Virus record (IMG/VR): IMGVR_UViG_3300025585_000150
Span: 1-25,559 of that record
DNA from: a virus
Length of the DNA stretch: 25,559 nt
Strand: one strand, 5' to 3'
A model generated the notes under the pieces. It did no database searches, was not told the DNA's origin, and worked only from the letters and a program-made list of their open reading frames with translations. Shown here one piece after another: positions 8,655-24,594 of the stretch; positions within the stretch are counted from its first letter, which is position 1; every line of letters begins with the position of its first letter. Position numbers and translations under genes: made by a program.

Positions 8655-9047
8655 ATGCCATACATGGTGATGGATCATGAGGTTGATCCAAAGGAGAAGT
8701 TGATTAGCGAGATTGGCGATCTGTCAGGGATTGAATTGTTCAACAATAAACTCTTGATCGCGGTCTATTTGCGCCCGGAGAAGACCAAAAGCGGGTTCTT
8801 TTTGCCGGACCAAAACCGAGAAGAGGACAAATTTCAGTCCAAAGTCGGCCTTTTGGTTAAAAAAGGCAATCTTGCTTTTGAGGATGACGCCGGGAAGTGG
8901 TTTCAAGACGTTGAAATCAACATGCACGACTGGCTGATCGTGCGTCCTAGCGATGCTTGGAGCATCACTGTCAACGGCGTTCTTTGCCGAATTGTTGATG
9001 ACGCTCTTGTGCAAGGGCGCGTTCCGCATCCTGACGCTGCTTGGTAA
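8655..9047 (+). CDS. GroES-like co-chaperonin
   Basis: The 130-residue protein carries a Cpn10-type pattern: NKLLIAVYLRPEKTKSGFFL (31-50), then SKVGLLVKKGNLAF (62-75) and HDWLIVRPSDAWSITVNGV (91-109). KTKSGFFLPD matches the GroES mobile-loop region; its FFL (48-50) corresponds to the hydrophobic tripeptide that contacts GroEL. Phage versions, such as T4 gp31, replace host GroES so that the capsid protein folds in the host chaperonin. Position between the packaging genes and scaffold/MCP suits that job. No GroEL is in the window, so host GroEL would be used. A purine-rich GAAGAGGGGG lies upstream. Confidence 0.85.
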   Translation: MPYMVMDHEVDPKEKLISEIGDLSGIELFNNKLLIAVYLRPEKTKSGFFLPDQNREEDKFQSKVGLLVKKGNLAFEDDAGKWFQDVEINMHDWLIVRPSDAWSITVNGVLCRIVDDALVQGRVPHPDAAW

Positions 9048-20850: not shown

Positions 20851-21243
20851 ATGGCTCACTTTGCACAACTGGACCCTAGCAGCGTCGTTCTTCAGGTAAT
20901 TGTTGTAAACAACAATGAATTGTTGGACGAGCAAGGAGTTGAGAGCGAGGCTAAAGGTATTGCGTTTTGTCAGTCGCTTTTTGGCCCTGAAACTCTTTGG
21001 GCGCAAACCAGCTATAATGCCAATTTCCGCAAAAACTACGCTGGGATTGGGTTTTCATTTGACGCGGTAAGGAACGCCTTTATTCCGCCAAAGCCTTACC
21101 CCTCATGGGTTCTCAATGAAGAAACTTGCCAGTGGCAGGCACCTATTCCGTACCCGAATGATGGCAATTCATATTATTGGGATGAATCATCTACGGGTTC
21201 TCCAACCTACCAAACGTGGGTTGAGGTAACTTACGAGGTCTAA
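20851..21243 (+). CDS. Conserved phage protein of the MAHFAxLD family
   Basis: The 130-residue protein starts MAHFAQLDPSSVVLQVIVVN and contains KGIAFCQSLFGPETLWAQTS, FRKNYAGIGFSFDAVRNAF, IPPKPYPSWVLNEETCQWQA and PIPYP. This family is very widespread in cyanophages and other environmental phages, where it lies among tail-fibre genes. Its function is not established. GAGGGGATAGA precedes the ATG. It lies 9 nt after cassette 2 and 1 nt before cassette 3. A fibre-assembly or tail-associated role is inference from position. Confidence 0.8.
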   Translation: MAHFAQLDPSSVVLQVIVVNNNELLDEQGVESEAKGIAFCQSLFGPETLWAQTSYNANFRKNYAGIGFSFDAVRNAFIPPKPYPSWVLNEETCQWQAPIPYPNDGNSYYWDESSTGSPTYQTWVEVTYEV

Positions 21244-21244
21244 G

Positions 21245-21820
21245 ATGCCTTCAACGATCAACGCCTCTAATGGAGCTTCAAGCGGCCTGATTTCCACAGG
21301 CGACGCTTCTGGCGTGCTTCAGCTTCAGACCAATAACGGCACTACGGCGCTGACGTTGGGAACGGATCAGTCTGCCACGTTTGCCAATAAGGTGACTATC
21401 ACCGGCACTACGTCGGCGCTTGGTCTGGTTGTGACAAACATGGTGGAGGCGACAACTGTTTCCGCCACGTCAGCAACAGGCACGATCACCTATGACGTGA
21501 CGACCCAATCCATTCTCTACTATACGGTTAACGCTGCGGCTAATTGGACGATGAATTTCCGCGCCAGCAGCGGGACCAGTCTGGACACGGCTATGGCAAC
21601 TGGGCAGACCATCACGGTCGTCTTCCTCGCTACCAATGGGCCGACTGCTTACTACAACAGCGCCGTTCAAATTGATGGCTCGTCCGTTACGCCGAAATAT
21701 CAGGGCGGCACCGCATGGACATCTGGCAACGCTTCCAGCATTGATGCGTACACATACACAATCATCAAGACTGGCTCTGCTACGTTTACCGTGTTGGCTT
21801 CTCAGACTAAGTTTGCGTGA
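21245..21820 (+). CDS. Fibre-type protein, cassette 3 (C-terminal type B)
   Basis: The 191-residue protein has an N-terminal segment SSGLISTGDASGVLQLQTNN GTTALTL, a module related to the start of the gene at 18075. The C-terminal type B domain runs from about residue 68: VSATSATGTITYDVTTQ, then TVVFLATNGPTAYYNSAVQI, DGSSVTPKYQGGTAWTSGN and YTYTIIKTGSATFTVLASQT to KFA. Type B recurs in the gene at 23191. The following gene starts after a 9-nt gap, the same spacing as after the other type B gene. Confidence 0.7.
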   Translation: MPSTINASNGASSGLISTGDASGVLQLQTNNGTTALTLGTDQSATFANKVTITGTTSALGLVVTNMVEATTVSATSATGTITYDVTTQSILYYTVNAAANWTMNFRASSGTSLDTAMATGQTITVVFLATNGPTAYYNSAVQIDGSSVTPKYQGGTAWTSGNASSIDAYTYTIIKTGSATFTVLASQTKFA

Positions 21821-21829
21821 GGTAGCTCC

Positions 21830-22888
21830 ATGCCCACCGCAATCAGCTTTGCCGCAGGATCAGCTAGAGGATTTGGGTTTGCAACCCTGTCTGCGGGTGG
21901 TTTTTTAGCTCTCTCACACGGTTTGACGCCGTTTGTGAGCGTCTATGCTTTCACTGCGAGTGGATTTGGCTCAAAATATGCAAATCCTGCTACGCTGCCT
22001 GCAAGCACAGGCGTGGGCGTTGCTTACAACCACAACTCAACTGTGTTGGCTGTAGCTCATGCAACAACCCCATTTTTAAGCGTGTATCCTTGGTCAGCTG
22101 GTGGGTTTGGAGCCAAATATGCCAATCCAGCTACTCTGCCAACAGGCTTAGGCAACGGCGTTGACTTTAACTCTAATAGCTCCGCGATAGCTGTTTCACA
22201 TGGTGCAACGCCATATATCACCGCTTATCCGTGGTCTTCTGCTGGTTTTGGAACAAAATACGCCAATCCGTCTACGTTGCCGACAGGAACCGGTAATGGC
22301 GTAGCTTTTAGTCCTAGCGATGCTGCACTTGCGGTTTCTCATAACGCTTCGCCGTTTATCTCCATATATGCCTTTTCCGGGAGCGGTTTTGGGTCAAAAT
22401 TTGCGGACCCAGCTACTTTGCCAACAGGAACCGGAAATGGCGTTGCGTTTGCGCCGAACGGCTCTCATGTGGCAGTTGCTCATACTACGACGCCCTTTAT
22501 CACGGCCTATCCTTGGTCGGGTGGCGGATTCGGAACTAAGTATGCCAATCCTTCAACTTTGCCGACAGGAACGGGTGATAGCGTTGCATTTAACCCAACT
22601 AGCACTGTTGTGGCGGTAGGACATGGAACAAACACTTTTGTCTCAGCCTATGCGTGGTCTGGCAGCGGATTCGGAACCAAGTATTCAAACCCCGCCACCC
22701 TCCCTACTGGCGAGGGTTTTGGCGTGACGTTTAACGCAGCCGGTACGGCCATTGCGGTTGCCCACGGCACTACGCCATTTGTCACCGCTTATCCTTGGTC
22801 CAACGCAACCGGTTTTGGAACTAAGTACGCTAATCCTTCTACACTTCCACCCAGCACTGGCACTAGCGTGTCATTTGGCACAGCTTAA
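21830..22888 (+). CDS. Seven-bladed beta-propeller candidate tip, cassette 3
   Basis: The 352-residue protein has a 24-residue leader (MPTAISFAAGSARGFGFATL...) followed by exactly seven repeats of 47 residues (the last is 46). A typical repeat is AIAVSHGATPYITAYPWSSA followed by GFGTKYANPSTLPTGTGNGV AF. Each ends with a short turn equivalent to SPSD or APNG. Repeat lengths near 45 and the SPDG-x-x-LAVxH rhythm are those of WD40/YVTN-like propellers. Seven is the commonest blade number, so the repeats probably close into one ring. It occupies the place of a glycine-rich tip in other cassettes, suggesting receptor or glycan binding. No enzymatic residues are evident. Confidence 0.75.
   Translation: MPTAISFAAGSARGFGFATLSAGGFLALSHGLTPFVSVYAFTASGFGSKYANPATLPASTGVGVAYNHNSTVLAVAHATTPFLSVYPWSAGGFGAKYANPATLPTGLGNGVDFNSNSSAIAVSHGATPYITAYPWSSAGFGTKYANPSTLPTGTGNGVAFSPSDAALAVSHNASPFISIYAFSGSGFGSKFADPATLPTGTGNGVAFAPNGSHVAVAHTTTPFITAYPWSGGGFGTKYANPSTLPTGTGDSVAFNPTSTVVAVGHGTNTFVSAYAWSGSGFGTKYSNPATLPTGEGFGVTFNAAGTAIAVAHGTTPFVTAYPWSNATGFGTKYANPSTLPPSTGTSVSFGTA
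21902..22885. repeat. Seven tandem 141-nt coding repeats
   Basis: Seven consecutive units of 47 codons (the last 46) encode the blades of the propeller. The most constant stretch is GFG[ST]KYANP[AS]TLP. The units are diverged in DNA, so they are old rather than a fresh expansion. Confidence 0.75.
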
Positions 22889-22909: not shown

Positions 22910-23164
22910 ATGGTTGACACTGTAGCCGCGCGATCCGCGATCCTTGTAACTGCTCTTGAGGCGCGTGAGCAGGAAGTCCTGCATTATCAGATTAACATTG
23001 ATAACTACACGCTGGCTCTTGAGCGTATTGCCGCCATGTCCGCGCAGGAACAGTCTGATCTTTCCGCGTTCAAAGATCAGTTGCAGAGCCTTCTGGCGTC
23101 TGAAAAGGCGGAACAGAAAAAGGCGCAGATCATGCTTGACGTTATTCGGGCGCAGGTCGGCTGA
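22910..23164 (+). CDS. Small coiled-coil protein in the fibre locus
   Basis: The 84-residue protein is almost all helix: SAILVTALEAREQEVLHYQI NIDNYTLALERIAAM, then SDLSAFKDQLQSLLASEKAE and KKAQIMLDVIRAQVG. The composition is that of a small two-helix coiled coil. Similar small proteins lie among fibre genes in related phages. A fibre-assembly chaperone role is possible but unproven. GGGAG (22901-22905) is the ribosome site. It separates cassettes 3 and 4. Confidence 0.7.
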   Translation: MVDTVAARSAILVTALEAREQEVLHYQINIDNYTLALERIAAMSAQEQSDLSAFKDQLQSLLASEKAEQKKAQIMLDVIRAQVG

Positions 23165-23190: not shown

Positions 23191-23766
23191 ATGACGATCC
23201 CCCGCGACCTATCCAATCTTGCTCCGGGCGCTAACACGTCTGGCGTTTTGCAGCCGTCTAAAGGCGGGACGGGGGCCACCACTCTGGCGGGGGCTAATAT
23301 CCCCGTTACCACGGCGAACAACACGTTTACCGGCACTCAGAGCTTCACGGGCACGTCCTCCGCTTTGGCGGCGGTTCTCACTGACGTGGCAGAAAGCATC
23401 ACGGTTTCCGCTACTGCGGCAACCGGCACGATCAACTACGACGTGACCACGCAGAACGCCCTTTTCTACACCACCAACTCATCCGGCAACTTTACGGTCA
23501 ATTTCAGAGGTTCGTCTGGCACATCGCTGGACACTCTGATGTCAACCGGCCAGATGATTACCGCAGTGTTTCTCGTGACCAACGGTTCGCCTGCTTACTA
23601 CAATACGGCTGTGCAGGTGGATGGCTCGTCTGTCACTCCAAAGTGGCAGGGCGGCACCGCGCCAACGAGCGGTAATACGTCATCGGTAGACATCTACACT
23701 TACACGATCATCAAGACGGGAAGCGCCACGTTCTCTGTCTTTGCTTCGCAGACTAAATTTGCGTGA
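23191..23766 (+). CDS. Fibre-type protein, cassette 4 (C-terminal type B)
   Basis: The 191-residue protein has a different N-terminus from its paralogue at 21245: MTIPRDLSNLAPGANTSGVL, then QPSKGGTGATTL, a stalk-type start common in phage fibres. The C-terminal type B domain is highly similar: ITVSATAATGTINYDVTTQ, AVQVDGSSVTPKWQGGTAP and YTYTIIKTGSATFSVFASQT to KFA. AAGGAGAG precedes the ATG. The 9-nt gap to the next gene equals that after the other type B gene. Confidence 0.7.
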   Translation: MTIPRDLSNLAPGANTSGVLQPSKGGTGATTLAGANIPVTTANNTFTGTQSFTGTSSALAAVLTDVAESITVSATAATGTINYDVTTQNALFYTTNSSGNFTVNFRGSSGTSLDTLMSTGQMITAVFLVTNGSPAYYNTAVQVDGSSVTPKWQGGTAPTSGNTSSVDIYTYTIIKTGSATFSVFASQTKFA

Positions 23767-23775
23767 GGTGCAAAT

Positions 23776-24594
23776 ATGCCCACTATCGTCACGCGAGGCG
23801 TAGCATCTGCCAGAGCATTGGGCTTTGCAAGAATAACCGGCAATCCTCCTCCTACGGTTGAATACCTCGTTGTGGCGGGTGGTGGTGGAGCCGGATATGG
23901 CGGCGGTGGCGCGGGCGGTTATAGAACTGCCTCTGGGTTTGCTGTAACAAGCGGCTCTGCGATCACCGTTACTGTTGGCGCTGGTGGAAGCGGTAGCACC
24001 GGAAGCCCCTCTAATGGTTCAAATTCTGTCTTCAGTTCCATAACAAGTCTTGGTGGCGGTTATGGAGGCTCATCAAACGATTATACTGGTGATACTGGCG
24101 GGTCCGGCGGCGGCGGATTTCTTGGTAATGGCAGCGGAGAGGCGAATGGTTCTCCGGGAACGTCAGGACAAGGTAATAGTGGAGGGCGTGGCGGGAGCGA
24201 TGATGAAACGTACCGCACCGGCGGCGGCGGTGGTGGCGCAGGCGGGAGTGGAACGGATAGCGGCGGCGGCGGGGGTAACGGTGGTAACGGGTCATCGTCT
24301 AGCATCACTGGCTCATCCGTAACTTACGCGGGTGGCGGTGGCGGAAACGGCTCCACCTCTGATGGCGCTGGATCAGGCGGCTCTGGCGGTGGCGGCACAA
24401 ATGGTGGTTCCGGCACGGCAAATACCGGTGGTGGCGGCGGGGCCAATAGTGGAAGTGGCGGCTCTGGGGTGGTTATTATTCGGTATGCCGACACTTATTC
24501 TGCCGCGACAGCAACAACCGGGTCGCCTACAATTACTGTTTCTGGCGGGTATCGCATTTACCGTTGGACAGGCTCAGGCAGCATCACGTTCTAG
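23776..24594 (+). CDS. Glycine-rich candidate tip, cassette 4
   Basis: The 272-residue protein has a leader MPTIVTRGVASARALGFARI (1-20) that resembles the propeller leader at 21830. It then has PPPTVEYLVVAGGGGAG, a glycine-rich body (GGGGGGAGGSGTDSGGGGG and similar) and a C-terminus almost identical to that of the gene at 18548 (IIRYADTYSAATATTGSPT ... YRWTGSGSITF). Body and end match cassette 1 while the leader matches cassette 3, a clear mosaic. A polyglycine-type adhesin is the best guess. Confidence 0.7.
   Translation: MPTIVTRGVASARALGFARITGNPPPTVEYLVVAGGGGAGYGGGGAGGYRTASGFAVTSGSAITVTVGAGGSGSTGSPSNGSNSVFSSITSLGGGYGGSSNDYTGDTGGSGGGGFLGNGSGEANGSPGTSGQGNSGGRGGSDDETYRTGGGGGGAGGSGTDSGGGGGNGGNGSSSSITGSSVTYAGGGGGNGSTSDGAGSGGSGGGGTNGGSGTANTGGGGGANSGSGGSGVVIIRYADTYSAATATTGSPTITVSGGYRIYRWTGSGSITF

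Follow-up and report, generated by a model that had tools for sequence, protein, structure and literature searches.

The window analysed here (the whole stretch of 25,559 nucleotides, positions 1 to 25,559 of the IMG/VR record IMGVR_UViG_3300025585_000150) is a 25.6-kb virus record in which terminase, portal and major capsid genes precede collagen-like tail-fibre genes and a run of small genes. The gene under study (21830-22888) lies between a stem gene and a small partner gene, and a sister cassette with its own stem and head comes next. The features of the locus are as follows:

21245..21820, + strand: stem gene, 191 aa, phrog_5906-like, directly upstream of the propeller head (same order in relatives)
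21830..22888, + strand: head protein, 352 aa (ORF with ATG start), short leader plus predicted closed seven-blade beta-propeller
21830..21892, + strand: shared head leader MPTAISFAAGSARGFGFATLS, residues 1-21, proposed docking peptide (leader profile E 3e-6; pLDDT < 50)
21905..22045, + strand: blade repeat 1 (strands b-c-d-a), from repeat analysis
22046..22186, + strand: blade repeat 2, from repeat analysis
22187..22327, + strand: blade repeat 3, from repeat analysis
22328..22468, + strand: blade repeat 4, from repeat analysis
22469..22609, + strand: blade repeat 5, from repeat analysis
22610..22750, + strand: blade repeat 6, from repeat analysis
22751..22885, + strand: blade repeat 7, ending in the C-terminal ring-closing strand (residues 344-351)
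22910..23164, + strand: partner gene, 84 aa, predicted helical hairpin, directly downstream of the propeller head
23191..23766, + strand: second stem gene, of the sister cassette, 63% identical to the stem at 21245-21820
23776..24594, + strand: sister head with a Gly_rich_2 body (Pfam PF21722, E 2.8e-19) and a leader of the same type, MPTIVTRGVASARALGFARITG

Two other genes of the window deserve mention. The one at 20851-21243, flanked by a Gly-rich head and the next stem, belongs to phrog_7759 (unknown function, E 1e-46), and a look-alike is also found 3' of a Gly-rich head in the relative L207. In the head-gene region, positions 8655-9047 give a weak PHROG match (E 0.0046) to a GroES-like co-chaperonin.

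Repeats, predicted fold and family of the head protein

The head protein contains seven repeats, with anchor spacings of 47, 47, 47, 47, 47 and 48 residues. Its self-identity at a lag of 47 is 0.50, while 1000 shuffled sequences gave at most 0.18 at any lag, and the repeat signal is therefore far beyond chance. The first-pass annotation had described exactly seven repeats of 47 residues; the number and the basic spacing are right, whereas the final spacing measures 48 residues and the seventh blade is shorter than the others, its innermost strand being, in the AlphaFold2 model, the C-terminal one (344-351), which closes against blade 1. Blades 1-6 share about 50-70% amino-acid identity with one another. 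Recent blade duplication was also considered and ruled out, because nucleotide identity among these six blades is just 54-70%.

An AlphaFold2 model, computed from a 49-row alignment of relatives, is a confident seven-blade propeller (pLDDT 92.4, pTM 0.88), in which the ring comprises residues 24-352, with its first (24-30) and last (344-351) strands placed as velcro closure predicts, and disorder is confined to leader residues 1-21 (pLDDT < 50). Compared with the PDB using Foldseek, the model matches the seven-blade design 7bid and the natural seven-blade proteins 3fgb and 1ri6 (TMq 0.70-0.75). The head is thus predicted to be a closed beta-propeller made of seven four-strand blades.

Blade number in relatives bears on this prediction. 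It was counted in 72 deduplicated complete viral proteins, which are the best-matching set and not a random sample: 39 have seven blades, 26 have 14 and four have 21, with single proteins of 5, 9 and 15, so that 69 of these 72 distinct proteins have exactly 7, 14 or 21. In those with 14 or 21 blades, the spacing is 50-54 residues at every seventh boundary and nearly always 46-48 within the rings. Because blade numbers are locked to multiples of seven and linkers fall at the boundaries, ring closure is supported independently of the model. The alternative of an open solenoid or fibre, which the 5, 6, 9 or 15 blades of some relatives would favour, is extremely improbable, since the model predicts a ring with terminal strands sited as closure requires, and counts locked to multiples of seven with boundary linkers are not a solenoid pattern. 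The earlier proposal of a single closed ring on a short leader, for which structure prediction had been the suggested check, is consequently borne out by the model, the Foldseek matches and the blade counts of relatives, and the multivalent surface that it foresaw is inherent in seven similar blades. Repetitive, recently amplified propellers form a continuum of blade numbers (PMC9218822), in contrast to the multiples of seven of this viral family. The locking of blade number by whole rings appears to be new, and provides a natural test case for propeller growth by whole rings. The exceptions to the multiple-of-seven rule, L021, L058, L059 and L091 (with 15, 9, 5 and 6 blades, respectively), could represent genes that are decaying, recombined or misassembled, or else rings with another mode of assembly.

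Searches of Pfam, PHROG, NCBIfam and (with the single sequence) the PDB gave nothing useful for the head protein, whose family has no entry in the first three of these databases. Pfam WD40 (PF00400) does not match it at E <= 1, and the YVTN beta-propeller family is not matched in NCBIfam or Pfam; in the blade consensus, strand c ends in YPW(S), and neither WD nor GH dipeptides occur. A profile search, on the other hand, matches the repetitive WD40 protein 2ymu (E 1.4e-29) and 7bie (E 8e-20) and, judging from the former match, the propeller is a remote relative of the WD40 superfamily. It shares the seven-blade fold with the recently amplified WD40 propellers (2ymu and the WRAP designs 7bid-7big) and profile similarity with 2ymu, but differs from them in lacking a PF00400 match and both dipeptides. 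A sugar-binding surface had also been suggested, with a search against lectin propellers as its check; in Pfam, none of the family profiles (tachylectin-2, fungal fucose lectin, PVL) matches the head.

The family is abundant among viruses, with at least 592 matches in IMG/VR, and just 15 loci were found among 84,980 bacterial and archaeal species genomes. Two public records belong to the same family: MW202701.1, a "wD40 repeat protein" of Caudoviricetes sp. ctYwJ313 from Manatee Spring (59.5% identity to the head), which has two rings, a different leader and, downstream, a partner homologue (60% identity), and the BFVD entry A0A6J5SDD4, "WD40/YVTN repeat-like", from an uncultured Caudovirales phage (46% identity), also with a different leader. 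Both are annotated by repeat type alone, with no mention of the head role or of the partner. More distant relatives are present in the Pseudomonas phages POR1 and ZRG1 and in the Salicola phage CGphi29.

An exchangeable slot behind a common leader

A profile of the head leader, built from 62 non-propeller heads only (consensus MPLIITRGAASARGFGFFAA), detects the leader of the propeller in the window with E 3e-6; control leaders give no score. Among relatives, a start resembling this leader (about 20 aa) is present in 65 of the 67 genes located directly 3' of this stem. The bodies that follow were assigned with Gly_rich_2, Laminin_G_3, DUF7483 and SBBP among the types used, and differ: Gly-rich in 24 of the 67, LamG in 19, DUF7483/LamG in 12, an SBBP propeller in five, the propeller described here in another five, and unknown in two. 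In the near relative L187, whose stems are 77%, 97% and 100% identical to those of the window, a DUF7483/LamG head occupies the position of the propeller, with matching genes on either side. The ring itself is also found on other short leaders and at the C-terminus of long proteins with N-terminal matches to PHROG tail-fibre families (the fusions L010, L026, L042, L057 and L064).

That the propeller fills an exchangeable head slot, with exchange taking place at the leader boundary, is strongly supported, and a common leader joining unrelated heads appears to be new. The view of the first-pass annotation that the propeller stands in place of a glycine-rich tip was right in substance, the slot being wider and accepting also LamG, DUF7483 and SBBP heads. 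A further type of head, of 322 aa (GDGTVAIFQLGW...), is carried on the same stem and leader by L196 (4454-5419), with the same head in L225, and has no Pfam match.

The downstream partner gene

The 84-aa partner (22910-23164) has no match among Pfam, PHROG or PDB families. A member of its family is located directly 3' of 145 of the 152 viral propeller genes; none of the 56 other heads behind the same stem is followed by one. Of the seven propellers without an adjoining partner, four are the second propeller of a locus in which the partner lies 3' of a different propeller gene. When viral contigs were searched with the partner as seed, all 102 distinct readable upstream genes were propellers, the query having come from propeller loci, so that remote members elsewhere could escape. 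The coupling between propeller and partner is strongly supported, and such a propeller-specific helical partner appears to be new. The AlphaFold2 model of the protein is a helical hairpin (pLDDT 95), for which Foldseek retrieves only generic helical hairpins (E > 0.1). Two subfamilies, weakly alike in profile comparison, can be distinguished: the a-type, which accompanies short leaders, and the b-type, which is found almost only with fused long stems.

Head-specific assembly chaperones help fibre heads to fold, trimerise or attach. The gene place occupied by the partner is taken, behind DUF7483 heads and a single SBBP head, by PF16778 (Phage_tail_APC) tail assembly chaperones, which likewise are small head-type-specific genes directly downstream of the head, although the propeller's partner belongs to an unrelated helical-hairpin family. 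The partner does not match PF16778; only the fused protein of L005 does, in its C-terminal half. Its identification as a known chaperone was accordingly rejected for want of any family match. By analogy with those pairs, the partner is perhaps an assembly chaperone for the propeller, and would most likely aid its folding, trimerisation or attachment as head-specific chaperones do.

The main competitor of this proposal, less probable but to be taken seriously, is that the partner remains in the virion as a structural component (a helical connector or a clamp for ring trimerisation) rather than acting as a transient chaperone. The partner could be structural because it has no sequence match to chaperones and because, in many phages, a separate chaperone-like gene is found 3' of it; moreover, it accompanies the ring whatever the leader or the number of rings, its hairpin is very confidently predicted, and its two subfamilies are split according to N-terminal architecture. 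Against this, its position and head specificity mirror those of the PF16778 chaperones after other heads, and one member (L005) is fused to PF16778. This fusion (L005:8010-8540, in one frame) may be real; alternatively, a deletion or an assembly chimera may have joined two adjacent genes, given that many relatives have a distinct chaperone-like gene on the 3' side of the partner. LamG heads (L209:3848-4150, L234:7050-7373 and similar loci) are also followed by a small gene of their own (M.YSKNGSIPK.ETDGT.GW...), weakly similar to Pfam ALTTAQ_rpt, which is a possible further head-specific helper.

Variable face and proposed role

In propellers in general, the b-c and d-a loops share one face. 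An entropy profile of 535 blades has its highest values at blade position 6 (b-c loop) and at positions 37 and 35 (d-a loop and start of strand a), where replacement to silent changes in pairwise comparisons amount to 573:50, 556:70 and 541:58, respectively (about 8-11 to 1). At most other positions silent changes exceed replacements, or the ratio is far lower, and the a-b loop (at the bottom, on the other face) is moderately variable. Some loop variability is expected in any protein; the pattern found here is consistent with a recognition face. A receptor-binding protein diversified by a diversity-generating retroelement was also considered and rejected, no reverse transcriptase being found in 22 related records, several of them incomplete.

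Fibre heads determine which bacteria are open to infection by a phage. The gene at 21830-22888 probably encodes an exchangeable, distal receptor-binding head of a phage fibre, served by a dedicated helical partner. Three observations point to this role: the window holds terminase, portal and major capsid genes together with collagen-like tail-fibre genes, the ring is C-terminal on tail-fibre stems, and it is interchangeable with other adhesin heads. The 20-residue leader would dock the head onto the stem encoded just upstream, and the remaining 330 residues are predicted to close into a rigid seven-blade ring, as the blade counts in sevens support, which probably touches the host surface with the face bearing the b-c and d-a loops, where the variability is concentrated. 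Related phages exchange the whole head while retaining stem and leader. A more specific version, in which the ring on its shared docking leader and a hairpin chaperone form a cassette that is swapped as a whole and thereby changes host recognition, is advanced tentatively, at a little under even chances.

It is unlikely that the propeller is instead an enzyme borne on the fibre, of the lactonase or depolymerase type. Phage tail propellers are sometimes enzymatic, and the nearest natural folds in the PDB include the 6-phosphogluconolactonases 1ri6, 6nau and 3scy; however, identity to these proteins is just 10-12%, no enzyme family is matched in Pfam or NCBIfam, and the invariant columns are structural G, P, F, Y, W and T residues repeated across blades, the sole invariant charged residue being one Lys, with no blade-specific Asp, Glu or His invariant. 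Even less probable is a minor structural part of the tail with no receptor role, comparable to the nozzle propellers of SU10 or T7. Podovirus nozzle proteins do include seven-blade propellers (PMC9509320), but the protein described here is a stand-alone head in a swap slot with lectin-like alternatives, the ring is C-terminal in tail-fibre fusions, and the replacement by a LamG head in a near relative (L187) would be unexpected for a core tail component.

The receptor-binding role has precedents, as propellers are used or have been proposed for host recognition in phi11 (Gp45), PRD1 (P2) and phiKZ (gp131C) (PMC4901313), and the claim that propellers at this position of a fibre cassette are little described was overstated, given these proteins and the close relatives annotated as "WD40/YVTN repeat-like" in public phage records. 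Literature searches for tail heads of the YVTN or WD40 kind in phages, or for a chaperone specific to propellers, found nothing direct. Like the head of the window, gp131C is seven-bladed, whereas Gp45 and P2 are five-bladed; in Gp45, the propeller is located mid-protein within one trimeric chain, while the present ring is a C-terminal head in its own right, which can be swapped and has a dedicated partner gene. From sequence it is possible to read where the swap unit is bounded (about 20 residues in), which alternatives the slot accepts and which gene is a candidate cognate helper; this makes a rule of head exchange testable in uncultured aquatic phages, and two abundant families with no Pfam or PHROG entry gain a hypothesis of function. 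In some loci (L035, L043, L052 and L074), two or three propeller genes that differ in their leaders stand in tandem, with the partner between them.
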